64,000 nucleotides of DNA, from positions 2,201,501-2,265,500 of the forward strand of contig NZ_CP060695.1 of the NCBI RefSeq assembly GCF_014352875.1. Reading direction: 5' to 3'. This document shows, piece after piece, positions 31,754-53,390 of the stretch. The notes under the pieces were generated by a model. That model worked only from the letters and a program-made list of their open reading frames with translations, had not been told where the DNA came from and ran no database searches. The DNA comes from Polaribacter pectinis (GTDB lineage: Bacteria > Bacteroidota > Bacteroidia > Flavobacteriales > Flavobacteriaceae). Position 1 is the first letter of the stretch; each line of letters starts with the position of its first letter. The position numbers and the translations under genes are program-made.

Positions 31754-32911
31754 ATGAATAATCTACCTACTATTGTTTTAGAACAAAAAGTCCATCGAAA
31801 AATACCTCAACTATTATTAAAGTTTAAGTATAACGACTTATTAAAAGATACTTTAAAAAAAATTAAAGGTTCTAAATGGAGCATAACTTTAAGAGCGTGG
31901 TATATTGAAGATACAAGTCAAAATTTAGAATTAGTCCATAAATATTTTGATAGGATAGCCATTATAGATGATAGTAAAATATCTAAAAAAACACTTTTTA
32001 AACGGAACCTTACTGAAGATGAAAAAGTACTACTTAACCAATATTACTCTTACCTAAAAGGTAAAAGATATAGTTTAAGCACAATACAAACCTACACATT
32101 CTTTGTAGCTGATTTTATTAATTTTCACACTAAAACCCCTTTAAACGAATTAAACAACAGAAGTGTAGAGCTGTTTATAGAAAAAGTATTCATTGAACGT
32201 AAATATTCTGTAAGCTCCCAAAGGCAGTTCATTAGTGGATTGAAATTATTTATAGCATTCTATCCACACACACAAATTAATGATTTAGTTTTAGAAAGAC
32301 CTAAAAAATCAAGAAAACTACCAAATGTACTCTCACAGGAAGAAGTTTTAGACATTATAAGATCTACACAAAACTTAAAACACAGAGCTATTCTTGCATT
32401 AATTTATTCTTGTGGATTAAGAATAAGTGAATTGATAAATTTAGAGTTAATAGATTTTCACATAGATAGAAAACAACTAATTGTTAAAGATAGTAAAGGC
32501 CGAAAAGATAGATATGTAAGTTTAGCTGAAAGTTTTCTACCGCTACTATCCAATTATTATTATTCTTACAAACCGAAAAAATTTTTCGTTGAAGGGCAAA
32601 AAGGTGGAAAATATAGTGCTGAAAGTGTTAGACAATTTTTAAAAAAGAGTTGTTTAAAAGCGAATATAAAAAAGCCAGTAACACCACATACATTAAGACA
32701 TAGTTACGCAACTCATTTATTAGAAAACGGAGTAGACATAAGATACATACAATCTCTACTAGGACATTCAAAACCAGAGACTACTATGATTTACACACAC
32801 GTAAAAAGAAAGGATTTATTAGAAATTCAAAATCCGTTAGATTTAGCTTTACAGAAATTAAAAAACACGGATAATAATAACGAAAAACTTGGTTTATCCC
32901 CTAAAATATAA
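31754..32911 (+). CDS. Tyrosine recombinase, candidate integron-type integrase
   Basis: The protein has 385 residues. It contains an N-terminal domain of about 80 residues typical of Bacteroidota integrases (IKGSKWSITLRAWYIED), a SAM-like core-binding domain (about 85-175) and a catalytic domain. The active-site residues are visible: Arg223 in CGLRISE, Lys248 or Lys251, His312 and Arg315 in PHTLRHSYATHLL, His338 in LLGHS and nucleophile Tyr347 in TTMIYTHV. The end, TMIYTHV followed by NPLD, resembles IntI (TMIYTHV ... SPLD). However, only about 60 residues separate Lys251 from His312, as in XerC/XerD. Classical IntI has about 35 more there, carrying the extra helix that grips folded attC. The gene points toward the array, as in the so-called reverse integrons. 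The recombinase family is certain; its role on these cassettes is inferred from position. Confidence 0.85.
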   Translation: MNNLPTIVLEQKVHRKIPQLLLKFKYNDLLKDTLKKIKGSKWSITLRAWYIEDTSQNLELVHKYFDRIAIIDDSKISKKTLFKRNLTEDEKVLLNQYYSYLKGKRYSLSTIQTYTFFVADFINFHTKTPLNELNNRSVELFIEKVFIERKYSVSSQRQFISGLKLFIAFYPHTQINDLVLERPKKSRKLPNVLSQEEVLDIIRSTQNLKHRAILALIYSCGLRISELINLELIDFHIDRKQLIVKDSKGRKDRYVSLAESFLPLLSNYYYSYKPKKFFVEGQKGGKYSAESVRQFLKKSCLKANIKKPVTPHTLRHSYATHLLENGVDIRYIQSLLGHSKPETTMIYTHVKRKDLLEIQNPLDLALQKLKNTDNNNEKLGLSPKI

Positions 32912-32951
32912 TTATTATACAATATATTTGATTACATATAACCAGTTCTAC
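32912..32951 (+). other. Candidate attI insertion site
   Basis: The bases TATAACCAGTTCTACGC cross from the recombinase's downstream flank into cassette 1. Comparison with the identical cassette 17, preceded by ACAAAACCG, shows that identity begins at the G or the following TT (32945/32946). That fixes the crossover. The left flank lacks an attC-like palindrome, as expected for a simple attI site next to the recombinase. Confidence 0.7.
32923..32930 (+). promoter_or_regulatory. Possible cassette promoter (Pc) -7 element
   Basis: TATATTTG matches the TAnnTTTG consensus and lies 15 bp before the crossover point, where a promoter would drive whichever cassette is newly inserted. No -33 TTTG at the right spacing is visible, so this is tentative. 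Confidence 0.3.
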
Positions 32952-32977
32952 GCAATTAAACAAAATCTTAACCTAAA

Positions 32978-34105
32978 ATGAAAACTGTAGTAAAAAGCAC
33001 TAACATCATATTATTGATTGGAAATGGATTTGATTTATCTCACAACTTAAAGACAGGCTATAATGATTTTGCTACTTGGCTTATTGAAAAAATTGAAAAA
33101 GAAATCAAAACTTTTATAACGACAAAAGAAGCTACAACTTTTTTGAAAGACATTTTTTTTGATTTTATAAATAGAGAACAATATCGGTATGTTATTTTTC
33201 AGCCGGATGAGATTGATAATGTTGTTAGACGATATTTTAATAATTACACAAACGACTCTTTAAACGAGCTACTAACTAATAATTCAGATAAAATCCAAAC
33301 TATTATATCTAATACATTTTTGGGTAAATTATATAATAATCAATATACAAACTGGTTTGATATAGAAAATGCTTATTTCCAAGAACTAATTAGATTAAAA
33401 ATTCTATATAAATCCGATTCTAAATACATAAACCAAGTAAAAAGACTCAATAAAGAATTAATAGAAATCAAAAATTACCTAAAAGAATATTTAAATACTA
33501 TTTTACTAAAGCATAATCCGAAAATAAATGAATTCTTTAATAATATAAAAGTATATGATAATTTAGATTTTAATATATTCATTATAAACTTTAATTATAC
33601 CAAAACCATTGGAAATTACTTCTCGGAATTCAGTAATGGAATAACTAATCTCAAAAGCGTAAATATTAATTATATCCACGGTAATTTGACACAAGACAAT
33701 ATCGTTTTTGGATATGGTAACGATAAACATAAGGAATATCAAGAAATAAAGGATTTAGAAGCAAATGAGTTTTTGGAAAATTTTAAAACTTTTGCGTATT
33801 TAAAAAATAATAATTATAATAGAATTTATAGTGATATTTTAGATAATAATAGTATAGATGATTATGAAGTTCTTGTTTTAGGGCATTCTTTAGGTACAAC
33901 TGACAAAACTTTATTAGAAGAAGTATTTAATAATGAGAAATGTAAAAAAATTCGTTTATTTAAAAGGTCGGACCTAAATGAAAATGAAGATAAAGTCAAA
34001 AAATCATTTGATAACTTGGTTTTTTCAGCGAGTAGAATACTTCGAAATGAGAAAGATTTACGCAAAAAAATATTGAATTATGAAGATAGTGATTTTTTCC
34101 CTTGA
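32978..34105 (+). CDS. AbiH-family abortive infection protein (cassette 1)
   Basis: The protein has 375 residues. It starts with a nucleotide-binding-like motif, ILLIGNGFDLSH (Gly15, Asn16, Gly17, Asp19), followed by YNDFATWL. Further motifs of the AbiH family are FIINFNYTKTIGNYF, YIHGNL ... VFGYGND and VLGHSLGTTDKTLLEEVF. AbiH proteins are phage-resistance factors first described on lactococcal plasmids; their mechanism is not well established. The start codon lies 32 bp inside the cassette, too close for a private promoter, so expression probably comes from the recombinase side. The DNA and protein are identical to cassette 17, which makes this the most recently moved cassette. Confidence 0.85.
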   Translation: MKTVVKSTNIILLIGNGFDLSHNLKTGYNDFATWLIEKIEKEIKTFITTKEATTFLKDIFFDFINREQYRYVIFQPDEIDNVVRRYFNNYTNDSLNELLTNNSDKIQTIISNTFLGKLYNNQYTNWFDIENAYFQELIRLKILYKSDSKYINQVKRLNKELIEIKNYLKEYLNTILLKHNPKINEFFNNIKVYDNLDFNIFIINFNYTKTIGNYFSEFSNGITNLKSVNINYIHGNLTQDNIVFGYGNDKHKEYQEIKDLEANEFLENFKTFAYLKNNNYNRIYSDILDNNSIDDYEVLVLGHSLGTTDKTLLEEVFNNEKCKKIRLFKRSDLNENEDKVKKSFDNLVFSASRILRNEKDLRKKILNYEDSDFFP

Positions 34106-34134
34106 CAATTGAACTTGACAGAATAAATAACTGC

Positions 34135-34268
34135 GTAGAACACCGTATATAATTTATTGCTGGCTTCTTGCTTACTTGCGAAAGTCCTCGCGGACTTTCT
34201 TGGTCGGTAATTATTTACTAAATTAGGTGCTTGAAACACGCAACAAACCATATACAAACACGTTGGCA
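34135..34268 (+). repeat. attC-like site 1
   Basis: Closes cassette 1. The left arm GCGTAGAAC (34133-34141) is the complement of the cassette's own start, GTTCTACGC. The inner hairpin GAAAGTCC/GGACTTTC is at 34180-34199. Family A, with a TTGC/GCAA shoulder. Confidence 0.88.
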
Positions 34269-34334
34269 TTCATTGAGCAGAACACTAAAAATGAAAATAA
34301 TTATTAAAAATTGAAATTTGAAATATATAATTAT

Positions 34335-34363
34335 GTGATTAAGTCACTAAAATTGTAACTTTG
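34335..34363 (+). promoter_or_regulatory. Possible promoter inside cassette 2
   Basis: TAACTTTG (34356-34363) fits the -7 consensus. An inverted repeat GTGA-N5-TCAC (34335-34347) sits where the -33 box would be and could be an operator. The gene starts 75 bp further on, leaving a long leader, which is unusual in this array. Confidence 0.35.
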
Positions 34364-34437
34364 TAGATTAAAATTTAGTCGGAATTATCTGAAAAAGGAC
34401 TTTAAAAAGGAGTAGGAATAACTAAACCATTAAAAAT

Positions 34438-34686
34438 ATGGAAGAGAATAAACAAATAGATGAAAAAAAGTTGGCAAGAGATGAAGCCTACAAAGATGTA
34501 AAAATGTACATCGCAAATGATTGGAAATTAAAAGAAGAAACACCTGAATATTTTCTTTTAACAAGAAATAATGGTTCTACAACTGGACATCTATTAATTG
34601 CCTTTTTTACACTTTGGTGGACTTTGGGAATTGGAAATTTAATTTACTATTTTGCTAAAAAAGAAAAGAAAAAAATATTGAAGTAA
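34438..34686 (+). CDS. Small membrane protein of unknown function (cassette 2)
   Basis: The protein has 82 residues: a charged N-terminal half (MEENKQIDEKKLARDE), a short soluble stretch with NDWKLKEETPEYFLLTRNNG, one long hydrophobic segment (LLIAFFTLWWTLGIGNLIYYFA) and a lysine-rich tail. I do not recognise the family. It is the only gene in its cassette and has an unusually long 5' leader with a promoter-like element. The single C-terminal membrane anchor and small size could suit a toxin, an immunity protein or a regulator, but nothing in the sequence decides this. Confidence 0.6.
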   Translation: MEENKQIDEKKLARDEAYKDVKMYIANDWKLKEETPEYFLLTRNNGSTTGHLLIAFFTLWWTLGIGNLIYYFAKKEKKKILK

Positions 34687-34804
34687 AATTATTTTAAAAG
34701 CTAAATTCTAATTCATTATCTGGAATTTAGCTTTTGTAATTATATTAAATTTTCAAAAAAAATCGACTAAAGACTGAATAATTTTAGCTCGAAAAACAAC
34801 GAAA

Positions 34805-34938
34805 TGCCAACACAGTATATAATTTATTGCTGGCTTCTCGCCTACTTACGAAAGTCCTCGCGGACTTTCTTTGTCCGTAATTATTTACTAAATTAGTTGC
34901 TTGAAACACGCAACAAACCATATACAACAACGTTGTGT
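34805..34938 (+). repeat. attC-like site 2
   Basis: Closes cassette 2. The left arm AATGCCAAC pairs with that cassette's start GTTGGCATT. The right core GTTGTGT belongs to cassette 3. Family A hairpin at 34850-34869, the same bases as in site 1. Confidence 0.88.
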
Positions 34939-34959
34939 GTAATTTATTAGAACGAAGAA

Positions 34960-35811
34960 ATGAAAATTAGAAAAAAAATACTTTTAGTGCTTTTATTGGG
35001 ACTCTTTTTTATAGGAGGTGCAATAGTTCAAAAGAAATATGGCTTAGGAAACTTAATCAAAATTTTAAATCCTAAATATAAGTCTGAAACCAAAAAGGAA
35101 GTTTTGAATGAAAACCATCGTGGCAAAATGTCTATTTATCTCCTAGCAGGTCAATCAAATATGGAAGGTGATGGAGAAGAAAAAATCGAAAGTTTGAATG
35201 ATGGTAAAATATATGTATTTAATAAAGACTATAAATGGGAATTTGGTAGAGAGCCTGTAAGAAAAAAAGTTGGACCGAGTATGGCTATGGCAAAAGTAAT
35301 AAGTCAAAATTCAAGTAATCCAATTGGTGTAATTAATGTTGCTGTAGGAGGAACAAATATCGCTCAATGGCAAAAAAGTTTTTCTGATAATTCTCTTTAC
35401 CTAAGATTATTAAAAAGGGCTTTAGCCTCGCAAACCCAAGGTGAAATAAAGGGACTATTTTTTTTACAAGGCGAAAATGATGCTGAAGGAGATAGTACGG
35501 ACCATTATGACGATTGGCACATTCAATTTGAAAAATTCATAACTAATATTAGAGAAGATTTGAAAGATAGTTCACTTCCCGTGGTTTATGGACAAATAGG
35601 AAAGGGTGATGGAAAGTATTGGTTGAAAGTTAAAAAAAGTCAAGAAAAAGTTTCTTTACCTAATGTGGTGATGATAAAAACTGATGACATTGACTATAAA
35701 GCTGGAATAATACATTATAACTCTGAAGCATATATTCAAATTGGAGAACGTTTTGGAAAAAAATATGTCGATGAGTTTGCAACTACACACAACAATGTAT
35801 ATAAAAAATAG
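34960..35811 (+). CDS. SASA-type SGNH carbohydrate esterase (cassette 3)
   Basis: The protein has 283 residues and an N-terminal membrane anchor or uncleaved signal (ILLVLLLGLFFIGGAIV). The catalytic domain begins with LLAGQSNMEG, with nucleophile Ser66. It continues with NVAVGGTNIAQW (oxyanion Gly), FLQGENDAEG and a late His252 in YKAGIIHYNSEAY. These are the blocks of the sialate O-acetylesterase/CE6-like family, which removes acetyl groups from sugars, here probably in the periplasm or on the surface. The last residues THNNVYKK are encoded inside the attC-like site, whose first bases overlap the final codons. The start is 28 bp after the cassette boundary. Confidence 0.8.
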   Translation: MKIRKKILLVLLLGLFFIGGAIVQKKYGLGNLIKILNPKYKSETKKEVLNENHRGKMSIYLLAGQSNMEGDGEEKIESLNDGKIYVFNKDYKWEFGREPVRKKVGPSMAMAKVISQNSSNPIGVINVAVGGTNIAQWQKSFSDNSLYLRLLKRALASQTQGEIKGLFFLQGENDAEGDSTDHYDDWHIQFEKFITNIREDLKDSSLPVVYGQIGKGDGKYWLKVKKSQEKVSLPNVVMIKTDDIDYKAGIIHYNSEAYIQIGERFGKKYVDEFATTHNNVYKK

Positions 35812-35918
35812 GCGAAGTAGTGCTGAAATCAATAGTGTTGACTTGTTTCTGACTCAGTGAAGAATCGAAAATACAGTACATCAAAATCGCCTAATTTTCA
35901 TATACAAAAACGTTGGCA
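35787..35918 (+). repeat. attC-like site 3
   Basis: Closes cassette 3. The left arm TACACACAAC pairs with the start GTTGTGTGTA. The shoulder stem is TAGGCGA (35809-35815) with TCGCCTA (35887-35893), instead of TTGC/GCAA: family C. It overlaps the end of the esterase gene. Confidence 0.83.
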
Positions 35919-35925
35919 ATAATTT

Positions 35926-36378
35926 ATGAAAGACACAATCCTTTTAGACAAATACCTGCTTTTATGGAAAGAAAGGAATGAAAATGTCATTGTTGCCGAG
36001 TTACGACATTATATAAAAAATGAATTTGGAGGGACTTTAGAAACACCTATTGGAAACTTGATTTGTTATAAAGAACACAAACCTATATTTTGGAGAATTA
36101 AAATTGTTTTGAGAGAAGACATTAAATATAGTCAAACCCAAAATCGAATTTTTGTAATTACAAAATCTGCTTATAAACGTAAACTCAATTACTATTTAGA
36201 GAAACTGAAAGATTTTGTCAACCCAAGATTTAGAGCAGAAAAAGAACTTGACAATGAAATCAAAAAATTCCTGTTGGATAATAATTTGATTTCTGAACCT
36301 TTTTCAATTTCTCGTTCAATCGAAAAAACTGAAAATTTTGAATTTATTGGAGAAATAGAAGAATTCGATTATACTTAA
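35926..36378 (+). CDS. Protein of unknown function, first gene of cassette 4
   Basis: The protein has 150 residues, is soluble and mostly charged, and has no signal or membrane segment. It contains ELRHYIKNEFGGTLETPIGNLICYKEHKPIFWRIKIVLRED, then a predicted helical region KRKLNYYLEKLKDFVNPRFRAEKELDNEIKKFL. I do not recognise the family. The start lies 14 bp inside the cassette, so it has no room for its own promoter. It is followed after 15 bp by a second small gene, so the two are probably translated from one transcript and may work together, like a toxin-antitoxin or effector-immunity pair. That is a guess from arrangement only. Confidence 0.6.
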   Translation: MKDTILLDKYLLLWKERNENVIVAELRHYIKNEFGGTLETPIGNLICYKEHKPIFWRIKIVLREDIKYSQTQNRIFVITKSAYKRKLNYYLEKLKDFVNPRFRAEKELDNEIKKFLLDNNLISEPFSISRSIEKTENFEFIGEIEEFDYT

Positions 36379-36393
36379 AAACTAATTTAATAA

Positions 36394-36744
36394 ATGAATA
36401 ATCTGACCTTTGACAAACTATTTGACCTAATCGAAGAAAATCGATTTGTAAACGAGTCGGACAAAAAGATTGCCGAAAAGATACTCGAAGCGGAAAATGA
36501 TTGGGGAGATTGGAAAACTTCAGTAAATAATTTAAATGAATTTATTATTGTATTGGAAAGAGAAGTTGGAGGAACTGTTAACAAAACAAGTCTGAACAAA
36601 CTCTTGAAAAAATATAATCGGAATATTACTCAAAACATGTGGGAAGCGGAAACGGTTTGTTCTTTATTAGAAATTTTTGAGCTAACCAAAGAGACTGAAT
36701 TGAGAAAAATATTTAATGAATTGACTGAAAAAGTAAAAACATAA
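36394..36744 (+). CDS. Protein of unknown function, second gene of cassette 4
   Basis: The protein has 116 residues, is acidic and appears all alpha-helical (FDKLFDLIEENRFVNESDKKIAEKILEAEND ... LLEIFELTKETELRKIFNELTEK). It has no signal peptide or membrane segment, and I do not recognise the family. It starts 15 bp after the preceding gene and ends 13 bp before the attC-like site. An acidic helical partner of a basic protein would fit an antitoxin or immunity role, but no diagnostic motif is present. Confidence 0.6.
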   Translation: MNNLTFDKLFDLIEENRFVNESDKKIAEKILEAENDWGDWKTSVNNLNEFIIVLEREVGGTVNKTSLNKLLKKYNRNITQNMWEAETVCSLLEIFELTKETELRKIFNELTEKVKT

Positions 36745-36756
36745 TAAAAAAACTAT

Positions 36757-36888
36757 TGCCAACACCGTGTAAAATTAATTGCTGGTTTTAGCCAATTTAC
36801 GAAAGTCCTCGCGGACTTTCTATCTGTGATTTATTTGCTAACTTTAGTGCTTAAAACACGCAACTAATCTTACACAAACACGTTGCCA
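36757..36888 (+). repeat. attC-like site 4
   Basis: Closes cassette 4. The left arm TATTGCCAAC pairs with the start GTTGGCAATA. The L-type stem GTGTAA/TTACAC is perfect. Family A hairpin at 36801-36820. Confidence 0.88.
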
Positions 36889-36925
36889 TTAATTTACAAA
36901 CCGAACATTTCACATTGAATATTTT

Positions 36926-37804
36926 ATGATAGAAAGAATTAGAAATAAATTAGATAAAATCGAAAAATGGGAGGTTTTAGGCTTTATATTTAACATTTTA
37001 ATATTTTTAGTTGGATTCGGAATTGGAGGTATTTATTTGATTGCGAATGGTTTTGATGAATCAAATTATATATCAATAATTTTAGGTATTATAATATCCT
37101 CAATAGGCTTTGGCTTTATTTTTAATGTATATTTCAGTAATATAAAATGGTTGAATTTCTTTATTTATATACCAGCAATTATAATTGGAATAATTGCAAT
37201 TACATCTGTAGTTGGAATTGCAATTATTCCTTTTTCATCTAAAGTAGACTTAAAAATAGATTTAGGAATATTAATATTAAAAGACAGTTTTGTCCGATTT
37301 GCTTTAATCATATTAGATTTTTTCTTAGCATTTAAGTTATTTACATATGCAAAAAACAGAATAAGAGAGCGTAAACGAATAAAACTACTTGAAGTTGATA
37401 AAAAAACCGAAAACAAAAAAATGAATAAATCAGATTTAGAAATTCAAAAAAAACTTGTAGAAATATTCATGAATTTAGAAAAAGAAATTGAGTTAAATAA
37501 TTCTGAAACAAATAAATTGGGTTGGCAACAAAGAAATGAATTAATTACACACGTAAATTCAGAATACGATAACCACAATAATCTTAATTCAAAAAGAAAC
37601 GAATGGGATGATTCTGTAAAAAAAGGAAATGTTCTAAAGTGGGTTTATGACCTTTTCAAAGAAAGGAGAGATTTATATGGCTATTTTGAAAATTACAAAG
37701 AAATTGAATTGAATTTAGAAAATCTAAAAACTGAAGCAATTCAAAAAGAGAAATATAAAATTGCTAACTATATAAATGAATGGATAATTGAACTTCCGAA
37801 ATAA
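36926..37804 (+). CDS. Four-span membrane protein with cytoplasmic helical domain (cassette 5)
   Basis: The protein has 292 residues. Four hydrophobic spans fill the first 150 residues (for example VLGFIFNILIFLVGFGIGG, ISIILGIIISSIGFGFIF, IIIGIIAITSVVGIAIIPF, FALIILDFFLAFKLF). A soluble, charged, helical C-terminal half of about 140 residues follows, with LGWQQRNELITHVNSEYDNHNN. I do not recognise the family. A membrane region joined to a cytoplasmic helical domain is a common design for phage-defence effectors that damage the membrane, but here that is only analogy. Single gene in its cassette. Confidence 0.6.
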   Translation: MIERIRNKLDKIEKWEVLGFIFNILIFLVGFGIGGIYLIANGFDESNYISIILGIIISSIGFGFIFNVYFSNIKWLNFFIYIPAIIIGIIAITSVVGIAIIPFSSKVDLKIDLGILILKDSFVRFALIILDFFLAFKLFTYAKNRIRERKRIKLLEVDKKTENKKMNKSDLEIQKKLVEIFMNLEKEIELNNSETNKLGWQQRNELITHVNSEYDNHNNLNSKRNEWDDSVKKGNVLKWVYDLFKERRDLYGYFENYKEIELNLENLKTEAIQKEKYKIANYINEWIIELPK

Positions 37805-37811
37805 AAACTAA

Positions 37812-37943
37812 TGGCAACACCGTATATAATTTATTGCTAGTTCTAGCCTACTTACGAAAATCCTCGCGGATTTTCTATTCGGTTTTTATTTGCTAAATTA
37901 GGTGCTTAAAACACGCAACAAACCATATACAAACACGTTACCC
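37812..37943 (+). repeat. attC-like site 5
   Basis: Closes cassette 5. The left arm TAATGGCAAC pairs with the start GTTGCCATTA. Family A with a compensated inner hairpin, GAAAATCC/GGATTTTC (37856-37875): two bases changed on one arm are matched on the other. Confidence 0.88.
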
Positions 37944-38053
37944 ACAAGCTGAAAACCAACCGCATATTTTAGCACTTTCGGTTTTTTCCGACACACACAT
38001 CCAACGCTCAAAAAACCAAAAGAGCTAAAATTTCCCAACGCTTGAAATTATGT

Positions 38054-45156: not shown

Positions 45157-47217
45157 ATGAAAGCAAACGAAACTAAAGTTGAGGACTTTTTATCTTCAAA
45201 CAAAACACAATTCGTAATCCCAGTTTACCAAAGAAATTATGATTGGTCAACTAGCCAATGTAAACAACTTTTAGACGATATTCTCGAAGTCGGAACTAGT
45301 AAAAAAACAAACGCACATTTCATTGGAAGTGTAGTTTACGTCCACGATGATGTTTATACTTCTTCAAGAATAAAGGAATTAACAGTAATTGACGGACAAC
45401 AACGTTTGACTACATTAACTTTAATTTATTTAACTCTTTATCGTTTAGCAATAGAAATGAATGACGAAGGACTTGAAGCTGAAATAAGTGAAACATATCT
45501 GACAAATAAATTTGCACCAGAAGAAGAAAAACTAAAGTTACGTCCTACAGAGAATAATGATAAAGCAATCAAGTATTTATTGAGAAGTGACTCAACAGAA
45601 GAGTTTAATGATTTCTCTAAAGTAATTGATAATTTTAATTACTTCAAAAGTAGAATTACTCAAGAAAATATCGAATATGTTTTAAAAGGTCTTTCAAAAC
45701 TTATGTTCGTTGAAATTTCTCTTGACAGAGAAAAAGACGACCCTCAACGTATCTTTGAAAGCTTAAACTCGACAGGTTTGGAATTATCTCAAGCGGATTT
45801 AATTCGTAACTATATTTTAATGGGTCTTAATCGTAAAAGTCAAAATAAGATTTATAATAATTATTGGGAGATAATTGAGAAATTAGCAAAAGACGAAAGT
45901 TTAAATACAAGTAAAGTTTCTGATTTTATTAGAGATTATTTGACTTTAGTTAATAATAAAATACCTAATAAAAGTAAAGTCTATTTAGAGTTTAAAGCTA
46001 AATTTCCAACAAGTGATTTAGAGCAATTAGAAAACAATTTATTGCCTATAAAATCACTAGTAAAGTTTTACAACAAACTGTTAAACCCTAAAAACGAACC
46101 TGATAGAGCAATTAGAACTCAACTAGAATATATAAATCGTCTTGAAATAAACGTAGCCTTTCCATTTTTAATGAAAGTTTATGAAGACTATTCAGAAAAC
46201 ATAATAGATAAAGAAACATTTATTAAGGTTTTAGATTTTATTCAATCATTTGCTTGGCGAAGATTTATTCTCGGTTTACCGACAAATGCTTTAAATAAAA
46301 TATTTATGACACTTTATGAGAAAATTGACAAAGAAAATTATTTAATTTCTCTTCAAAAATGGCTTTTAAAAAGACCTGGTTCTCAACGTTTTCCTAAAAA
46401 CAATGAATTAATAGAAAGTCTTAAACTTAAAGACGTTTATAACGTAAAATCCAAGAACAGAACTTACCTTTTAGAACGTTTAGAGAATTTTGAAAACAAG
46501 GAACCTGTTAAAATAGAAGGAAATACAGATATAACTATAGAACATATTTTTCCACAAAATCCTGACCCAAAGTGGAAAGTCGATTTAGGAACTGATGAAT
46601 ATAATTTTATAAAAGAAACTTATTTAAACACAATAGGAAACCTTACGTTATCTGGAAATAACGGAAAATTAGGAAACAAAGTTTTTACTTTTAAACGAGA
46701 TTTAGAAAATGCTGGTTACAAAGACAGTAGATTATGGTTAAATAAGTATTTATCAATTGCAGAAAAGTGGGACAAAGCAGAAATCGAAAAACGTTTTGAC
46801 TTATTAGCAGAACGTTTCTTAAAAATATGGGAATATCCAGAAATTGAATTAGACGATAGAGATGAAAACAACGAAGTAAACATATTCGAAGCTGAAGACC
46901 CAAAACATAAGAAGCTTGAATATGCAATCTTCTTTGACCAAAAAATTGAGGTTACTCAAGTTGCTAAATTATATGTAGAGGTTTTTAAGCAATTATTTGA
47001 CTTACAACCTGAAACATTTTTCACAACTGATTTAGCAGAAAAAGTAACTTTAACAAAAACACCAAAAGAAGGAAACCCAAGACAGCCAGTTCAAATTAAT
47101 GACACTTATTTTATCGAAGGAAACATTGATAATATTGGAAAATTTGAGAAGATAAAACATGCATTGACAATATTTGATTCAGAAGATGAACTAACAATTA
47201 AATATGCGGAAAAATAA
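45157..47217 (+). CDS. GmrSD-like DUF262/DUF1524 antiphage nuclease (cassette 12)
   Basis: The protein has 686 residues. The N-terminal DUF262 domain shows FVIPVYQRNYDWS and ELTVIDGQQRLTTLTLIYL, a ParB-like nucleotide-binding and hydrolysing fold. The DUF1524 nuclease domain near residues 450-510 has ITIEHIFPQNPDPKW and TIGNLTLSGNNGKLGN, an HNH-type site with His in the EHIFPQN motif. A C-terminal domain of about 90 residues (EYAIFFDQKIEVTQVAKLYVEVFKQL) is extra. GmrSD enzymes cut modified phage DNA, so restriction of hypermodified phages is the likely role. It is the largest cassette gene and begins 53 bp after the boundary. Confidence 0.85.
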   Translation: MKANETKVEDFLSSNKTQFVIPVYQRNYDWSTSQCKQLLDDILEVGTSKKTNAHFIGSVVYVHDDVYTSSRIKELTVIDGQQRLTTLTLIYLTLYRLAIEMNDEGLEAEISETYLTNKFAPEEEKLKLRPTENNDKAIKYLLRSDSTEEFNDFSKVIDNFNYFKSRITQENIEYVLKGLSKLMFVEISLDREKDDPQRIFESLNSTGLELSQADLIRNYILMGLNRKSQNKIYNNYWEIIEKLAKDESLNTSKVSDFIRDYLTLVNNKIPNKSKVYLEFKAKFPTSDLEQLENNLLPIKSLVKFYNKLLNPKNEPDRAIRTQLEYINRLEINVAFPFLMKVYEDYSENIIDKETFIKVLDFIQSFAWRRFILGLPTNALNKIFMTLYEKIDKENYLISLQKWLLKRPGSQRFPKNNELIESLKLKDVYNVKSKNRTYLLERLENFENKEPVKIEGNTDITIEHIFPQNPDPKWKVDLGTDEYNFIKETYLNTIGNLTLSGNNGKLGNKVFTFKRDLENAGYKDSRLWLNKYLSIAEKWDKAEIEKRFDLLAERFLKIWEYPEIELDDRDENNEVNIFEAEDPKHKKLEYAIFFDQKIEVTQVAKLYVEVFKQLFDLQPETFFTTDLAEKVTLTKTPKEGNPRQPVQINDTYFIEGNIDNIGKFEKIKHALTIFDSEDELTIKYAEK

Positions 47218-47225
47218 TAACGAAC

Positions 47226-47357
47226 GCCCAACACCGTATAAAATTAATTGCTGGTTTTAGCCTATTTACGAAAGTCCTCGCGGACTTTCTATCTGTGTTT
47301 TATTTGCCAACTTTAGTGCTTAAAACACGCAACTAATCTTATACAAACACGTTGGCA
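47226..47357 (+). repeat. attC-like site 12
   Basis: Closes cassette 12. The left arm ACGCCCAAC pairs with the start GTTGGGCGT, the only core here that also fits the canonical GTTRRRY. Family A hairpin at 47270-47289. Confidence 0.88.
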
Positions 47358-47386
47358 GTTATTAAAATTCGGAACAATAAATAATT

Positions 47387-48028
47387 ATGAGTAAAGCTGA
47401 AAAAGAAAACTTGGATTTAGATAAATTTAAAAAAGAAATTGCTGATCAACTATTACCATTTATCGTTAACGATTTATATAAAAACGGAGAAATAAACGAA
47501 AATGAACTGAATGACAAAAAAACAGTTTATGAAAAAACACTTAAACACTTTGTAAATAACAACGATTTTGAAATTGAGACTTTAATTGACCATCGGAATT
47601 CAATCCTGAAAACAGCCAAGGAATATGAAAAAAGTAATTTTGATTTATCAAATACGTTATATGCCACATTCATTGAACATACATTGAATTATATTATTCA
47701 ATCAGCTTGTTACAATTCTGAAATAGACAGAAAAACTACAACCGAGATTATTAGAAATGTAAATATCGGTGGAAAATCAACGTGGCTAATTAAACTTTTA
47801 GGTTTACGACCAATAAACAAGAAACATATAAAAACAATTTTAAAAACATCTGAATTAAGAAACGCTTATATACATTACAAATGGAAACCGGATAAACCTA
47901 AAGAAAAAGATGAAAATGAACATTTAAAGAATGTAAAAGAAATGATAAAATATCTTCGAACATATGAAACAAAAGTAGAATTTGAAGGAAAAAAGAATAT
48001 CATAAATAAGACAATAAATAGTAAATAA
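47387..48028 (+). CDS. HEPN-domain protein, putative RNase (cassette 13)
   Basis: The protein has 213 residues, is alpha-helical and soluble. The motif ELRNAYIHYKW contains Arg158-x4-His163, the catalytic signature of HEPN ribonucleases, preceded by helices LSNTLYATFIEHTLNYIIQSACYN that suit the HEPN bundle. HEPN proteins commonly act as toxins or abortive-infection effectors. No antitoxin (such as an MNT nucleotidyltransferase) is present in the cassette, so it is either self-regulated or acts as a single-gene defence module. The start is 36 bp inside the cassette. Confidence 0.65.
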   Translation: MSKAEKENLDLDKFKKEIADQLLPFIVNDLYKNGEINENELNDKKTVYEKTLKHFVNNNDFEIETLIDHRNSILKTAKEYEKSNFDLSNTLYATFIEHTLNYIIQSACYNSEIDRKTTTEIIRNVNIGGKSTWLIKLLGLRPINKKHIKTILKTSELRNAYIHYKWKPDKPKEKDENEHLKNVKEMIKYLRTYETKVEFEGKKNIINKTINSK

Positions 48029-48037
48029 AAAAACAAC

Positions 48038-48171
48038 TGCCAACACCGTATAAAAAAAATTGCTAAATTAGTGCTTAATCAAAGTTAGTTGCATTTTTTG
48101 CTACTTCTGAATTTCCTGCGGAAATTCCTCGCACACAAAAACGCAACTTTCTTTATACAACAACGTTGGCA
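48038..48171 (+). repeat. attC-like site 13
   Basis: Closes cassette 13. The left arm AACTGCCAAC pairs with the start GTTGGCAGTT. First of family B: inner hairpin GAATTTCC/GGAAATTC (48109-48127). Confidence 0.86.
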
Positions 48172-48260
48172 AAAACTTGTTGAATGACGCTAGAAAGTCA
48201 TAAGTTCACTAAATTAACTTTCTGCTTAAAATAAAACTCAAATCAAAAATTAGATATTAA

Positions 48261-48818
48261 ATGAAAAAAGAATCAAAGTTTCAAAATAATGCATTACTCG
48301 TAATAATTATTTTTGTAATACTTTATTTTGTCAATTATATATTTTCAAAAGAACAAATAATTTTTGGTTTAAATTATTATGTAATAATTTGGATTCTTCC
48401 AATAATTTTTGGGTTAATTATATTATTTATAATTAGAAAAAAGTTTTTACAGGAAAACTTAAAAAATCCAGGAATAGGAATTTGGTATCTAATACAAGGA
48501 ATTATTTTTTCTCATTTGACAATTGGACTAATATCATTATTTTTATTTGAACAAATAAATTCTCAATTTATTGAAAACAAAAAAGTGGAAGTAGTTAATT
48601 GTTCAATAAACGAATTAGTAAGCTTTGATAACAATAGATTTTCTATAGACTTCAATTTAAGAAATGAATCAAAAAGAATAAGCATAAGTCAAAAAACATA
48701 CTTTAATTTTAAGAAAAAAGATTTGAATAAATATATGCTGAAATTTGAGTTTAAAGATGGTCTTTTGGGAACAGTAACTAAAATTAATTCTAAATTAATA
48801 AGAAAGATGAATATTTAA
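48261..48818 (+). CDS. Three-span membrane protein of unknown function (cassette 14)
   Basis: The protein has 185 residues. Three hydrophobic spans occur in the first 100 residues (LLVIIIFVILYFVNYIF, YVIIWILPIIFGLIILFII, YLIQGIIFSHLTIGLISLFLF). A basic beta-rich tail of about 80 residues follows (KVEVVNCSINELVSFDNNRFSIDFNLRNESKRISI). The family is not recognised. The leader of 95 bp inside the cassette is longer than most and includes a near-match to the -7 box, but I would not call a promoter from it. Confidence 0.6.
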   Translation: MKKESKFQNNALLVIIIFVILYFVNYIFSKEQIIFGLNYYVIIWILPIIFGLIILFIIRKKFLQENLKNPGIGIWYLIQGIIFSHLTIGLISLFLFEQINSQFIENKKVEVVNCSINELVSFDNNRFSIDFNLRNESKRISISQKTYFNFKKKDLNKYMLKFEFKDGLLGTVTKINSKLIRKMNI

Positions 48819-48976
48819 CAAAAAATATTGAACACTTTCTCACTTATAAATATAATCAGAATTAATATTCTGAATACTAAAATTCGGAATTGAATTTCTT
48901 ATTCAAAATCTAAGTTTTAAAACCATTTCAAAGTATAAAATTTTGAAAATTAAGAAATGAAAACAAAATACGCATT

Positions 48977-49110
48977 TGCCAACACCGTGTAATAAAAATT
49001 GCTTATTTTTAGCTTAATCAAAGTTAGTTGCTTTTTTATAAACTTCAATTTTACTGCGGAAAATAGCCGTTCATTTAAAACGCAACTTTCAGTACACAAA
49101 ACCGTTAGCC
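48977..49110 (+). repeat. attC-like site 14
   Basis: Closes cassette 14. The left arm TTTGCCAAC pairs with the start GTTGGCAAA. Family B with a degenerate inner hairpin (ATTTT/AAAAT around 49048-49063). Confidence 0.82.
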
Positions 49111-49127
49111 ACAATGTAAACCAACCA

Positions 49128-49757
49128 ATGAACAGAAAGATATTTTTGATTATGATTTTAACCTCTATTTTAAGTTTTTTCGGATGTAAAAAACAACCTG
49201 AAAAATCAAATGAAGAAATCGAAATGGATAAACATTTTGAAGAATGGAATAATCGAAAAATATATAAGGTTCTGACATCGGAAATTCTTGAATCTATTTC
49301 TGATGATAATCTTGAGCAAACTATTTTTGATAATATCTATGAAATTATTGGAGATGATTACAGAAATGAGTTAGCTGATATCCAAAAACTATCAAAAGGA
49401 CAACAGGCATTTTGGTCTACTTGGGTTTTAGAAGGAGAAGTAAATAATGGAGGATTTAATCAATTCTATTTTAACCCAAGTGGACAATATTCGGATATGG
49501 CGGAATTCGGATTTAAAACAATTGGAGCGGAAAAACATGCAGACTTGACTACTAATGCGAATAAAATTTATGCAGAAAACAAAGAGAGACTAGCGGAATT
49601 TGATGATGGAACAATGGAAAGTTTTAGCGAATCCTATAAAGACAATCCTTTGAATAAGTTGGATACCGAATTTTATGAATTGGGAGATTTAGAAAGTATT
49701 AGTGAATTAAGAATAAAATATATTCGTGAACATATAAGCGAATTTACAACTGAATAA
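49128..49757 (+). CDS. DMP19/DUF4375-like lipoprotein (cassette 15)
   Basis: The protein has 209 residues when started at ATG 49128. The open frame extends back to 48999, but those codons lie in the preceding attC-like site and would bury the signal peptide, so I chose the internal start. The signal peptide (IFLIMILTSILSFFGC) ends in a lipobox. The mature domain has QAFWSTWVLEGEVNNGGFNQFYFNPSGQYSDMAEFGFKTIGA, the DUF4375/DMP19 pattern. DMP19 of Neisseria is a DNA-mimic protein, but a lipid-anchored version outside the cytoplasm must do something else. It is the sole gene in its cassette. Confidence 0.7.
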   Translation: MNRKIFLIMILTSILSFFGCKKQPEKSNEEIEMDKHFEEWNNRKIYKVLTSEILESISDDNLEQTIFDNIYEIIGDDYRNELADIQKLSKGQQAFWSTWVLEGEVNNGGFNQFYFNPSGQYSDMAEFGFKTIGAEKHADLTTNANKIYAENKERLAEFDDGTMESFSESYKDNPLNKLDTEFYELGDLESISELRIKYIREHISEFTTE

Positions 49758-49766
49758 AAACACAGT

Positions 49767-49899
49767 GGCTAACAAAGTATATAAAAAATTGCTAGTTTTA
49801 GCTAAACCAAAGTTTGTTGCTCGTTTGCTAGCTTCTGATTTTCCTTCGGAAAATCCTCGCACACAAAACCGCAACTTTCCATATACATAAACGTTAGCT
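49767..49899 (+). repeat. attC-like site 15
   Basis: Closes cassette 15. The left arm GTGGCTAAC pairs with the start GTTAGCCAC. Family B; the inner hairpin GATTTTCC/GGAAAATC (49837-49855) differs from site 13 by paired changes on both arms. Confidence 0.86.
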
Positions 49900-49911
49900 G
49901 TAATTAGAAAA

Positions 49912-50502
49912 ATGGAACAACCTATAAAAATAGAGATTTTAGATATTGATAGTTATTACAGACAAATGGAGAAATATTTTCTTCAACATTTCTATAGTAA
50001 TAAAACACTAATTCCGATATTGATTTTCTTCGGAATCGGAATATTTCTTTTAATAAGCGGATTTTTGAGTGGATATGATTTAGAGATTATGACTTTAAAA
50101 AACGGACAGGAAGAAGTTACTCATAAAAACTACGGAATATCAATTGGAATTGGTTGCGGTTTAATCCTATATTCAATTCTTAAATTTCTTGATATTAGAA
50201 AATCTAAAAAAGCAACTGAACTTCTATATAGCATAAAAAGAAATAGAGAGAGAAAAGTAAATGACAAAGTTGAATTTACGCTTTCAGAAAATAAAATAAG
50301 TTATTCATCAAGTTTAAATAGTTGGAATAAAAAATGGGAATTTTACGATTATTACAAAATGACCAACAATAATCTGAATTTATATTCTAACAGTTATTAT
50401 TCTGGTTTTCCTGAATTAGTTATTCCTTTAAACGATTTGAATTCGGAGCAAATTGAATTTTTAAATAAATACATTAGTGGAAAAGTAAAAAACTACAGCT
50501 AA
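49912..50502 (+). CDS. Two-span membrane protein, possibly YcxB-like (cassette 16)
   Basis: The protein has 196 residues. Two close membrane spans (LIPILIFFGIGIFLLISGFL and YGISIGIGCGLILYSILKFL) are followed by a cytoplasmic domain of about 95 residues. In it, VEFTLSENKISYSSSLNSWNKKWEFYDYYKM ... LVIPLNDLNSEQIEFLNKYI has the outline of the C-terminal domain of YcxB-like proteins. That family is uncharacterised. The start codon is 19 bp after the cassette boundary, so the gene depends on upstream transcription. Confidence 0.6.
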   Translation: MEQPIKIEILDIDSYYRQMEKYFLQHFYSNKTLIPILIFFGIGIFLLISGFLSGYDLEIMTLKNGQEEVTHKNYGISIGIGCGLILYSILKFLDIRKSKKATELLYSIKRNRERKVNDKVEFTLSENKISYSSSLNSWNKKWEFYDYYKMTNNNLNLYSNSYYSGFPELVIPLNDLNSEQIEFLNKYISGKVKNYS

Positions 50503-50629
50503 CAACGTGTATAAAAAATTGCTAAATTAGTGCTTAATCAAAGGTAGTTGCATTTTTGTTACGTCTGAATTTCCTTCGGAAATTCCTCGCACACAAAACC
50601 GCAACTATTCATACACAAAACCGTTCTAC
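50497..50629 (+). repeat. attC-like site 16
   Basis: Closes cassette 16. The left arm TACAGCTAAC pairs with the start GTTAGCTGTA; the arm overlaps the stop of the membrane-protein gene. Family B hairpin at 50567-50585. Confidence 0.86.
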
Positions 50630-50655
50630 GCAATTAAACAAAATCTTAACCTAAA

Positions 50656-51783
50656 ATGAAAACTGTAGTAAAAAGCACTAACATCATATTATTGATTGGA
50701 AATGGATTTGATTTATCTCACAACTTAAAGACAGGCTATAATGATTTTGCTACTTGGCTTATTGAAAAAATTGAAAAAGAAATCAAAACTTTTATAACGA
50801 CAAAAGAAGCTACAACTTTTTTGAAAGACATTTTTTTTGATTTTATAAATAGAGAACAATATCGGTATGTTATTTTTCAGCCGGATGAGATTGATAATGT
50901 TGTTAGACGATATTTTAATAATTACACAAACGACTCTTTAAACGAGCTACTAACTAATAATTCAGATAAAATCCAAACTATTATATCTAATACATTTTTG
51001 GGTAAATTATATAATAATCAATATACAAACTGGTTTGATATAGAAAATGCTTATTTCCAAGAACTAATTAGATTAAAAATTCTATATAAATCCGATTCTA
51101 AATACATAAACCAAGTAAAAAGACTCAATAAAGAATTAATAGAAATCAAAAATTACCTAAAAGAATATTTAAATACTATTTTACTAAAGCATAATCCGAA
51201 AATAAATGAATTCTTTAATAATATAAAAGTATATGATAATTTAGATTTTAATATATTCATTATAAACTTTAATTATACCAAAACCATTGGAAATTACTTC
51301 TCGGAATTCAGTAATGGAATAACTAATCTCAAAAGCGTAAATATTAATTATATCCACGGTAATTTGACACAAGACAATATCGTTTTTGGATATGGTAACG
51401 ATAAACATAAGGAATATCAAGAAATAAAGGATTTAGAAGCAAATGAGTTTTTGGAAAATTTTAAAACTTTTGCGTATTTAAAAAATAATAATTATAATAG
51501 AATTTATAGTGATATTTTAGATAATAATAGTATAGATGATTATGAAGTTCTTGTTTTAGGGCATTCTTTAGGTACAACTGACAAAACTTTATTAGAAGAA
51601 GTATTTAATAATGAGAAATGTAAAAAAATTCGTTTATTTAAAAGGTCGGACCTAAATGAAAATGAAGATAAAGTCAAAAAATCATTTGATAACTTGGTTT
51701 TTTCAGCGAGTAGAATACTTCGAAATGAGAAAGATTTACGCAAAAAAATATTGAATTATGAAGATAGTGATTTTTTCCCTTGA
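50656..51783 (+). CDS. AbiH-family abortive infection protein, identical copy (cassette 17)
   Basis: The 375-residue protein is the same as that of cassette 1, with the same GNGFDLSH, NFNYTKTIG and HSLGTTD blocks. The identity covers the whole 1317-bp cassette, including the leader and closing palindrome, and stops at the recombination points on both sides. The two copies are 17,678 bp apart. This copy sits deep in the array and is probably the older one, since insertion normally occurs at attI. Both copies look intact, and neither has its own promoter. Confidence 0.85.
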   Translation: MKTVVKSTNIILLIGNGFDLSHNLKTGYNDFATWLIEKIEKEIKTFITTKEATTFLKDIFFDFINREQYRYVIFQPDEIDNVVRRYFNNYTNDSLNELLTNNSDKIQTIISNTFLGKLYNNQYTNWFDIENAYFQELIRLKILYKSDSKYINQVKRLNKELIEIKNYLKEYLNTILLKHNPKINEFFNNIKVYDNLDFNIFIINFNYTKTIGNYFSEFSNGITNLKSVNINYIHGNLTQDNIVFGYGNDKHKEYQEIKDLEANEFLENFKTFAYLKNNNYNRIYSDILDNNSIDDYEVLVLGHSLGTTDKTLLEEVFNNEKCKKIRLFKRSDLNENEDKVKKSFDNLVFSASRILRNEKDLRKKILNYEDSDFFP

Positions 51784-51812
51784 CAATTGAACTTGACAGA
51801 ATAAATAACTGC

Positions 51813-51946
51813 GTAGAACACCGTATATAATTTATTGCTGGCTTCTTGCTTACTTGCGAAAGTCCTCGCGGACTTTCTTGGTCGGTAATTATTTACTAAA
51901 TTAGGTGCTTGAAACACGCAACAAACCATATACAAACACGTTGGCA
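51813..51946 (+). repeat. attC-like site 17
   Basis: Closes cassette 17. Identical to site 1 up to GTTGGCA, after which the next cassette begins (AACATTTAAG here, TTCATTGAGC there). Family A hairpin at 51858-51877, although its neighbours are family B. Confidence 0.88.
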
Positions 51947-51962
51947 AACATTTAAGAACTGA

Positions 51963-52469
51963 ATGGAAAATTCTATATTTTTAATAATTGTAATTTTAAT
52001 TGTTTTATCAATTTGGATTTTGACTATAAAATATTTTCTTAATCCCTTATTTTTAAAACCGAAATTAAGTTTGCCTGAAATTATCAAATTTCTGAATGAA
52101 AAGAAATGTTCATTTATTGAATACAAAAATCTGAATAAAAATGAAAAGCAAAGGAATATTTTCAATCACACAAAAGGTTTCACAATCGAAAATGTTATTT
52201 ATGCAAAATCTGAATATAAAATAATAGGATTTTCTGAAAGTGAGAATATTTATAAAATTTTCTGGCTGAATTTAGAATCTTCTTTGCGACTTTTCGGAAA
52301 ACGAGAATTGAATTTTATTGAGGAAAAAGACTCTGAATTATTAATTGAATTACAAAATAAATATAATAAAGAAATAATAATCGTGACTGACAAATGTCCT
52401 GCTTGTAAAAATGGAATTTTAACAAATGAAATTGAATGCAAAAGTTGCGGATTAAATTTAGTCGCTTAA
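51963..52469 (+). CDS. Membrane-anchored zinc-ribbon protein (cassette 18)
   Basis: The protein has 168 residues. One N-terminal membrane span (IFLIIVILIVLSIWILTIKYF) is followed by a cytoplasmic domain of about 110 residues (LPEIIKFLNEKKCSFIEYKNL ... YKIFWLNLESSLRLFGKRELNFIEE). The protein ends in a small zinc ribbon, CPACKNG ... CKSCGLNL, with four cysteines in two CxxC pairs. I do not recognise the central domain. The start lies 22 bp inside the cassette, and the gene is alone in its unit. Confidence 0.6.
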   Translation: MENSIFLIIVILIVLSIWILTIKYFLNPLFLKPKLSLPEIIKFLNEKKCSFIEYKNLNKNEKQRNIFNHTKGFTIENVIYAKSEYKIIGFSESENIYKIFWLNLESSLRLFGKRELNFIEEKDSELLIELQNKYNKEIIIVTDKCPACKNGILTNEIECKSCGLNLVA

Positions 52470-52483
52470 TGAAAAAAACGATT

Positions 52484-52617
52484 TGCCAACACCGTGTATA
52501 AAAAATTGCTATTTTAGTGCTTCACCAAAGACAGTTGCAATTTTGCCAACTTCTGAATTTCCTTCGGAAATTCCTCGCAGACAAAATCGCAACTTTCCAT
52601 ACACAACAACGTTAGCA
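52484..52617 (+). repeat. attC-like site 18
   Basis: Closes cassette 18. The left arm TTTGCCAAC pairs with the start GTTGGCAAA. Family B hairpin at 52555-52573. Confidence 0.86.
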
Positions 52618-52646
52618 AATATTAACAAAAATCAATAATAATTATA

Positions 52647-53330
52647 ATGAAAAGAATAACAATCAGATTATTAATAGTATTGGGAATAATTACATTTGTA
52701 AAATGTAGTAATTTGAAAAAAGAGAAAACTATCTCCAATGGAAAACTTGAAAAAAAATCTCAAAGTATTATACCGAAATCAGATTTCAATAATGTTTTAG
52801 ACAATTTACTCATTTTTAAGTCTCAAAAAGAACTTGAAAAAACATTTGGTATAGAAAATATTAAAACTGAAACAACTGGAAATATAGACTCAGAAAGTGA
52901 AAATTATTACACTGTACTTTTTCCTAACACAAAAAATGAGATATTATTTTTCTGGAAAAATGAGAAAGAATTGAAAATTCTTGATTTTATTAAAATATCA
53001 GAAAAAAATGTTAGATGGTTAACAAAAGATGATTTAAGAATTGGTTTAAGACTTAAAGATTTAGAAAAAATAAATAAAAAAACTTTTACCTTTTATAATT
53101 TCGAGAGTGAATTACTTAGTGGTAAAATAGATTGGGATAATGGTTTTTTGAGTAACAGAAATGTTTCAGGAAAATTATCTCCTCCAAAATTTGAAGACCC
53201 ACATTATTCAACTCAATTAGATAAAGCATCTTTCGAAGGTTTTTCTAAATTAAAGAAAATACATAATTCATCAAGATTCTTAACGTCATATGATATATAC
53301 TTATCTGAAATAAAAGTATGGAATAAATAG
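52647..53330 (+). CDS. Lipoprotein of unknown function (cassette 19)
   Basis: The protein has 227 residues. The signal peptide (RLLIVLGIITFVKC) ends in a plausible lipobox cysteine. The domain that follows includes LTKDDLRIGLRLKDLEKINKKTFTFYNFESELLSGKIDWDNG, a block I have seen in uncharacterised Bacteroidota lipoproteins but cannot assign. It is the last cassette of the array. Its closing site is incomplete, so it may no longer be able to excise. Confidence 0.6.
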   Translation: MKRITIRLLIVLGIITFVKCSNLKKEKTISNGKLEKKSQSIIPKSDFNNVLDNLLIFKSQKELEKTFGIENIKTETTGNIDSESENYYTVLFPNTKNEILFFWKNEKELKILDFIKISEKNVRWLTKDDLRIGLRLKDLEKINKKTFTFYNFESELLSGKIDWDNGFLSNRNVSGKLSPPKFEDPHYSTQLDKASFEGFSKLKKIHNSSRFLTSYDIYLSEIKVWNK

Positions 53331-53360
53331 ATTATAAAAAATTGAAATACTAAAAACATT

Positions 53361-53390
53361 TGCTAACACCGTGTTATATTAATAACATCT
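53361..53390 (+). repeat. attC-like site 19, truncated
   Basis: The left half is normal: ATTTGCTAAC pairs with the cassette's start GTTAGCAAAT and is followed by ACCGTGT. It then changes to a short TGTTAT/ATAACA hairpin, and no GTT core or GCAA arm follows. The array ends here. Confidence 0.7.

Follow-up and report, generated by a model that had tools for sequence, protein, structure and literature searches.

A probable integron-like gene-cassette platform headed by its own type of tyrosine recombinase in Polaribacter pectinis and many other Flavobacteriaceae

Bacteroidota, or Bacteroidetes/Chlorobi, are listed among the integron-bearing phyla in reviews and surveys (PMC8618304, PMC9668308, PMC2426708), and a survey made with the standard tool in 2022 reported a single complete integron for Bacteroidetes, that of Salinibacter, alongside others in Chlorobi and Ignavibacteriae (PMC9024848). 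The additional domain of the integron integrase IntI is described as a recognition feature that is needed for recombination (PMC9668308), and the choice of strand at attC sites depends on extrahelical bases (PMC2727003). In phage P12002L, the site attC2 was recombined with attI1 by IntI1 on the bottom strand, with no recombination on the top strand, and the attC group of this phage is described as a cluster without an integrase (PMC9892861). In Riemerella anatipestifer, a gene with a 140-bp attC-like 3' end was inserted independently of homology, by a recombinase that the study does not identify (PMC13148043). Here, a stretch of 64,000 nucleotides from Polaribacter pectinis (assembly GCF_014352875.1, contig NZ_CP060695.1, positions 2,201,501 to 2,265,500 of the forward strand; hereafter the window, with positions counted from its first letter) was analysed, within which a tyrosine recombinase gene and the 19 gene units that follow it very probably form a platform for gene capture that resembles an integron but has an integrase of a separate type, as judged by sequence comparison.

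The recombinase gene (31754-32911) is followed by an attI-like insertion site, which occupies the 33 nt between its stop and the first cassette start, and then by 19 cassette units, all on the plus strand, which carries the longest open reading frame (ORF) in 19/19 units. Every unit opens with GTT, the G of which was taken as the unit start (Table 1), and closes in a palindrome. The initial annotation had described a tyrosine recombinase at the head of a co-oriented array, which was confirmed; its 19 unrelated units are indeed 19 in number, but only 18 are distinct, units 1 and 17 being identical (1317/1317 nt), and its palindromes of about 130 bp measure 123-126 nt in 17 units (from the AAC of R'' to the GTT of R'), while unit 10 has a palindrome of 186 nt and unit 19 only the left half of one. 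It had also claimed that the first bases of each unit complement the unit's own closing palindrome, and this holds throughout: the unit start is the reverse complement of its own closing arm, which ends in AAC, over 9-10 nt in 19/19 units, whereas the start of the next unit matches that arm over at least 8 nt in 0/18. When the arms were dealt out among the units, with unit 1 entered as no match (register off by 3 nt), the observed summed match of 173 (permuted mean 77, s.d. 8) was reached by 0/20,000 permutations, and the self-match of the unit ends is therefore not a chance pattern. By eye, most closing arms have a second AAC about 10-11 nt further upstream (window 34130-53365), and cassette starts often continue with AAT, which together with the second AAC possibly gives a longer R helix.

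The same genome, a single contig of 3,471,153 bases, carries a second recombinase gene, 98% identical and 110 kb off, which heads a second array of 20 cassettes, 19 of them with the self-match. The cargo of the two platforms is largely different; the sequence common to both runs up to GTT and diverges after it, and therefore defines the attI-like site. In a collection of named records at least 580 relatives of the recombinase were confirmed, and the best 80 of these are referred to as the named loci. Within a range that opens 60 nt ahead of the recombinase stop and closes 350 nt beyond it, 29/80 of them have a recognisable first cassette start, which lies 24-42 nt from the stop in 21/29 and 64-311 nt in 8/29 and is directly preceded by TATAAC in 24/29. 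Copies of cassettes occur at different places: cassette 1, at the attI-like site, equals the internal cassette 17, with the 20 nt on the left differing between the two (attI in one, half an attC in the other); cassette 11 recurs in array 2 beside other neighbours (1645/1646 nt); and array 2 contains an internal duplicate (99.7% over 703 nt). Pairs of an attI copy and an internal copy are likewise present in the loci L091 (100% over 800 bp), L055 (93.6% over 408) and L062 (96.2% over 426), one cassette is common to two genera (internal in L057, at attI in L058; 92.5% over 1067 bp), and L062, which belongs to another genus, holds a counterpart of window cassette 6 with 87% identity. The locus pairs L047/L085 and L048/L086 each represent the same contig and were excluded from the copy counts. 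Comparison of these copies, the boundaries of which all fall in the GTT core, shows the mobile unit to be a gene together with its palindrome, ending at that core. Judged from the two platforms and from internal cassettes that have a second copy at attI, the attI-like site, which begins right after the recombinase gene and spans 33 nt, is an entry point, in the position beside the integrase gene where integrons have theirs. One locus, L049, contains many diverged copies of small related cassettes in one array.

Relatives of the recombinase were found at E<=1e-50 in 186/299 sampled genomes of the host family (its own genome included) and, phylum-wide, at E<=1e-40 in 52/148 genomes; two identity groups are apparent among the matches listed, one of about 45-76% and a more distant one of mostly 35-43%, many members of which have stop codons. 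A site model of the palindromes, R1, was applied to 63 of the 80 named loci and returned 146 sites, 146/146 of which share one orientation and are placed on the downstream side of the recombinase, with 0 sites in about 589 kb upstream versus 146 in 272 kb downstream. Sites were present in 39/63 of these loci and in 36/48 of those extending 1 kb or more downstream; among 20 downstream stretches, all 17 that were scanned (three being too short) contained sites, as did 39/40 hand-picked genomes with the nearer recombinase and 20/20 genomes that have the more distant group alone, no more than 40 candidates being scored per count. R1 found no site at E<=0.1 in the surroundings of 12 canonical IntI loci. 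The self-match reached at least 8 nt in 73/91 neighbouring site pairs of the named loci, compared with 4/91 when the arm is set against the next start; dealt-out arms gave 2.4 on average and at most 8 in 200 permutations; the 91 pairs derive from 123 of the 146 sites, two cut-off sites having been left out and 21 not being locatable by script. By sequence comparison, the platform recurs in many Flavobacteriaceae. With a counterpart defined as at least 350 nt at 80% identity or more, the window array was not repeated in the stretches of other species compared, the sole counterpart outside the genome being that of cassette 6. The initial annotation had interpreted the array as a gene-capture system, which is upheld by identical cassettes at different places, their boundaries falling in the GTT core, by two platforms of one genome that share attI but differ largely in cargo, and by the arrays that accompany the recombinase in other genera. 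It had also named two patterns that would speak against capture, neither of which was seen in the material compared: the palindromes are not scattered in the manner of repetitive extragenic palindromic (REP) elements or miniature inverted-repeat transposable elements (MITEs), the two arrays accounting for 38 of the 56 detected among 150 scored candidates and other places for 18, and other species, in the stretches compared, do not carry the same genes in the same order.

The structure of the site was derived from the best 150 of 247 sites, aligned on the bottom strand, which fold into a 5-bp R helix and a 16-bp L helix, with 98.0% of cells pairing and 14 pairs showing changes on both sides (0/500 shuffles as high). 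Most sites lack extrahelical bases, because the L stem is free of indels in 136/150; a single deletion is present in two. Two pairs of the L stem are G.T in 141 and 149 of the 150 sites, as is the inner R-helix pair in 147/150; over the L-stem cells of the bottom strand, 345 G.T were counted versus 7 A.C, the top strand having C.A at those places. As in integrons, the bottom strand forms the better hairpin, with the more favourable folding energy in 37/38 integrated sites and 38/38 sites in circle form, compared with 31.5% of random windows (n=200), a few of the 38 being copies of each other. The R boxes RYYYAAC and GTTRRRY, in turn, are seldom canonical: GTTRRRY was seen at 4/39 unit starts of the genome (matching closings, 4/39) and at 0/73 starts in the named loci. 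A longer variant of the site, measuring 186-189 nt and with low model scores, recurs in the window (42439-43457) and in array 2 (L008:11586 and L009:5591). An Rfam scan of window positions 31500-54500 matched no family at E<=0.1.

The recombinase comprises a conserved N-terminal stretch of about 90 aa, a SAM-like core-binding domain and a tyrosine recombinase catalytic domain; R223, K248, H312, R315, H338 and Y347, which we take to be the catalytic residues, are invariant in 38 aligned rows. Its best match in the PDB is 4a8e (147 bits), named 'probable tyrosine recombinase XerC-like' and presumably the archaeal XerA. The alignment with IntI4 (2a3v) falls into two pieces, between which 24 residues face 67 of IntI4, and the IntI insert is absent from 6/6 platform rows and present in 5/5 Bacteroidota IntI rows, so that the platform enzyme lacks the IntI-specific additional domain. 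In a tree of 31 rows, IntI (100/100) and the platform (100/100) form separate clades, and IntI, the platform and the distant group are together separated from XerA and XerC/D (support 97/97); the branching order of these three is unsettled, a clade of platform and IntI not being rejected (p 0.216). Of the two origins that the initial annotation had offered, a distant integron lineage or a separate invention with a Xer-like enzyme, either may apply, the recombinase being placed with IntI relative to the Xer enzymes but outside IntI itself. This tree leaves out 37 rows of a quick tree of 68, phage integrases and TnpF among them, its sampling of other recombinases is thin and several of its rows are long branches; in the quick tree three rows labelled distant fall within the clade of the platform, and the placement of its long branches, XerA among them, is unsure. 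TIGR02249 scored above its cut-off in 84/296 genomes of the phylum, and the NCBI names of some orthologues read 'site-specific tyrosine recombinase/integron integrase'. Identity with canonical IntI was rejected, the insert being absent and the recombinase falling outside the IntI clade. Xer enzymes resolve replicon dimers at dif; such a role was set aside as apparently unfitting, two copies heading arrays in addition to the other Xer-sized matches in the genome, of which there are two (38% and 31% identity), although no search for dif itself was made. A strict scan for canonical attC arrays found a pair in 1/12 IntI loci, and having failed as a positive control was not used.

The genome also contains a third, degraded relative (39% identity, five stops; contig positions 1905264-1906364), around which no R1 site was found in 20 kb (L011). 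On the Acinetobacter plasmid NZ_CP104735.1 (L156), in the region 2967-4988, a shortened relative, TnpF, with 47% identity over aa 130-364, lies 190 bp ahead of tet(X3) in the same direction. The notion that tet(X3) follows TnpF as a cassette was not supported, as no self-matching closing site was found.

By the standard criteria, the platform is not an integron: its recombinase has no IntI insert, few of its R cores are canonical and extrahelical bases are mostly absent. Common descent with IntI is possible. In the mechanism that we propose, the recombinase would excise cassettes as circles, which would insert at attI or at another palindrome, the substrate being the folded bottom strand of the palindrome. 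The additional domain of IntI contacts extrahelical bases; most sites here are without the latter and the enzyme is without the former, so that strand choice would take another route, and a new one, being read from the asymmetric unpaired spacer (5 vs 2 nt) together with the conserved G.T wobbles, which would turn into C.A mismatches in a folded top strand.

Other explanations differ in how they account for the palindromes, for the enzyme or for its ancestry. It is barely credible that the palindromes are REP- or MITE-like repeats that lie beside genes and are moved by homologous recombination between repeats; 18/56 sites do lie outside the arrays and recombination between repeats could yield nearby copies, but cassette 1 at attI has no left-flank homology to its internal copy beyond the core, the closing arms fit the starts of their own units and not those of their neighbours, and the one-sided, co-oriented placement of 146/146 sites behind the recombinase would not be expected of such repeats. 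Plain duplication was rejected as an explanation. Alternatively, these could be true cassettes moved in trans by XerC/D or IntI, with the platform gene a bystander, which we consider quite improbable. Consistent with another enzyme, the Polaribacter phage P12002L (NC_028924) has seven R1 sites at E<=0.1 (E 1.9e-12 to 6.1e-4), some beside methyltransferase genes, one attC of the phage is recombined by IntI1 (PMC9892861), though it is not matched to those seven, and R1 sites are present in 12/20 genomes without a recombinase at E<=1e-50. The order of recombinase, attI and array is nevertheless fixed in many genera, two near-identical recombinases each head an array, and the 85 genomes in which TIGR02249 matches at E<=1e-60 include no member of the host family, the P. 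pectinis genome itself having no such match.

It is unlikely, in our estimation, that the system is simply an integron of the ordinary kind, served by a divergent IntI that has lost its insert. The common clade of IntI, platform and distant group relative to XerA and XerC/D, the clade of platform and IntI that was not rejected, a TIGR02249 score of 206 bits together with the 'integron integrase' names, and the integron-like GTT core and bottom-strand preference would all agree with this. Yet IntI and the platform both form monophyletic groups, which places the platform outside IntI in the 31-row tree, the insert distinguishes the two without exception in the rows compared, GTTRRRY is rare or absent at unit starts, the L stem is mostly without indels and R1 found nothing around the 12 IntI loci. 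Whether the platform is instead a second integron lineage we regard as evenly poised: such a lineage would be dominant in Flavobacteriaceae and overlooked by surveys that require the IntI insert, with an integrase that never gained, or lost, the additional domain, sites without extrahelical bases and G.T wobbles as the strand mark. If so, its integrase would be the enzyme that serves the 'integrase-less' attC clusters found in Flavobacteria, and perhaps also the one responsible for the homology-free insertion in Riemerella.

A number of observations weigh against an integron-like platform with its own integrase. The recombinase is taken as the agent from its linkage to the arrays, and recombination itself is inferred, neither the reaction nor circles nor changes between strains having been observed. 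No R1 site was found in 12/48 named loci with at least 1 kb downstream, or in 24/63 overall, and the 12/20 site-bearing genomes without a recombinase could represent orphan arrays or a missed recombinase. In the window's own genome, 18/56 sites lie outside both arrays and one cassette of array 2 breaks the self-match rule, as do 18/91 pairs in the named loci, some by a single mismatch. Both partners of each copy carry GTT, so that the exact G/TT cut is not resolvable within the core. The 150-site set was found with a model of its own family and contains related copies, and its conservation, wobbles included, is partly a matter of selection; in 12/150 of its sites the L stem contains a single extra base, which could be extrahelical. 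Finally, the genes adjoining the sites of phage P12002L run against the array orientation.

The count of 56 sites in the P. pectinis genome, with 38 within the two arrays, comes from scoring 150 of 5404 first-look candidates with the site model. All 56 would be oriented alike with respect to replication, given an origin at around 2.7-3.0 Mb and a terminus at around 0.6-1.3 Mb, and under that origin the bottom strand of the site would be the lagging-strand template. This is a weak lead, the placement being based on two rRNA directions and a noisy GC skew, with break points chosen post hoc, and dnaA, at 1.47 Mb, lies off the inferred origin.

The cargo of the window array (Table 1) includes the defence genes AbiH (twice), AbiJ and a GmrSD-type gene; in array 2, 4/10 ORFs scanned gave family hits over the cut-off, namely a methylase, a protein with a barstar domain, a thioredoxin-like and an MtlR-like protein. 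Outside the array, the window contains giant ORFs at 4902-18476 (4524 aa) and 20658-30284 (3208 aa), the first with minus-strand ORFs inside it that recur at multiples of 282 bp, suggesting internal repeats, and, past the array end on the other strand, an HsdR-type restriction gene (56240-59464).

Table 1. Recombinase gene, attI-like site and cassettes of the array, in window coordinates
Feature	Position	Strand	Basis
Platform recombinase, 385 aa	31754..32911	+	Pfam PF00589, PF13495; TIGR02249 206 bits vs cut-off 265
attI-like insertion site, ..TATATTTGATTACATATAACCA ahead of first GTT	32912..32944	+	Identical at second platform
Cassette 1, AbiH; attC-like site from ~34132	32945..34261	+	Pfam AbiH; exact copy = cassette 17
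Cassette 2, 82-aa protein	34262..34931	+	ORF, self-match
Cassette 3, SASA esterase	34932..35911	+	Pfam, self-match
Cassette 4, two ORFs, no Pfam match	35912..36881	+	ORFs, self-match
Cassette 5, 292 aa, no Pfam match	36882..37936	+	ORF, self-match
Cassette 6, ArsR regulator + MerT/HMA transporter	37937..39519	+	Pfam; 87% identical counterpart in locus L062
Cassette 7, 200 aa, no Pfam match	39520..40300	+	ORF, self-match
Cassette 8, Cass2 (integron-associated effector-binding protein) + second ORF	40301..41205	+	PF14526
Cassette 9, HSDR_N_2 protein (type I restriction-like N-terminus)	41206..42438	+	Pfam
Cassette 10, AbiJ/Abi_C; long site 186 nt	42439..43457	+	Family match
Cassette 11, T9SS-sorted GloVer protein	43458..45103	+	Family match; also in array 2, 1645/1646 nt
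Cassette 12, GmrSD-type protein	45104..47350	+	Family match
Cassette 13, no Pfam match	47351..48164	+	Self-match
Cassette 14, no Pfam match	48165..49103	+	Self-match
Cassette 15, DMP19-like	49104..49892	+	Pfam
Cassette 16, no Pfam match	49893..50622	+	Self-match
Cassette 17, AbiH, exact copy of cassette 1	50623..51939	+	1317/1317 nt
Cassette 18, no Pfam match	51940..52610	+	Self-match
Cassette 19, 227 aa, no Pfam match; half palindrome (AAC at 53365), array end	52611..53390 (end approximate)	+	

No account of the platform, or of the recombinase as a cassette integrase, was found in the open-access literature, preprints and most subscription journals lying outside the search. Parts of the system are already in print (the attC sites of phage P12002L, the Riemerella insertion), and the platform as a whole is apparently new, no description of it having been found. 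If the proposed reading is true, cassette capture needs neither the IntI additional domain nor, in most sites, extrahelical bases, the origin of integrons from Xer-type enzymes becomes testable, and Flavobacteria possess a major route of gene capture with defence genes among its cargo.

In comparison with known systems, the platform resembles integrons, especially sedentary chromosomal integrons, in its recombinase, its attI and its array of gene-plus-site cassettes in one orientation, and also in the GTT core, the better fold of the bottom strand and entry at attI. It differs from them in the lack of the IntI-specific insert, in its conserved N-terminal stretch, in R cores that seldom read GTTRRRY/RYYYAAC and in a 16-bp L stem with G.T wobbles and no indels in 136/150 sites. 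Class 1 integrons have their integrase and cassettes in divergent order, whereas the attI of the platform lies behind the recombinase gene and the cassettes run in the same direction as it. Own-end complementarity extends over 9-10 nt here and 9-11 nt in attC (PMC2727003). Phage P12002L differs from the platform arrays in that the adjoining genes lie the opposite way round relative to the sites, and the attC2 tested there has no assigned counterpart among the R1 sites; a nucleotide search of the phage collection with one palindrome gave no match, though the covariance model finds the P12002L sites. In this phage (L196; 2790-2931 and 8028-8096), a compact 69-nt form of the stem and a site overlapping gp42, annotated as a small gene, were observed. 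The Riemerella insertion, likened here by its published description only, shares with the platform its occurrence in Flavobacteriales, a gene with a folding 3' segment of about 140 nt and the lack of flanking homology. Finally, the platform recombinase has the same core-binding and catalytic architecture as XerA and XerC/XerD, but unlike Xer enzymes it heads cassette arrays.

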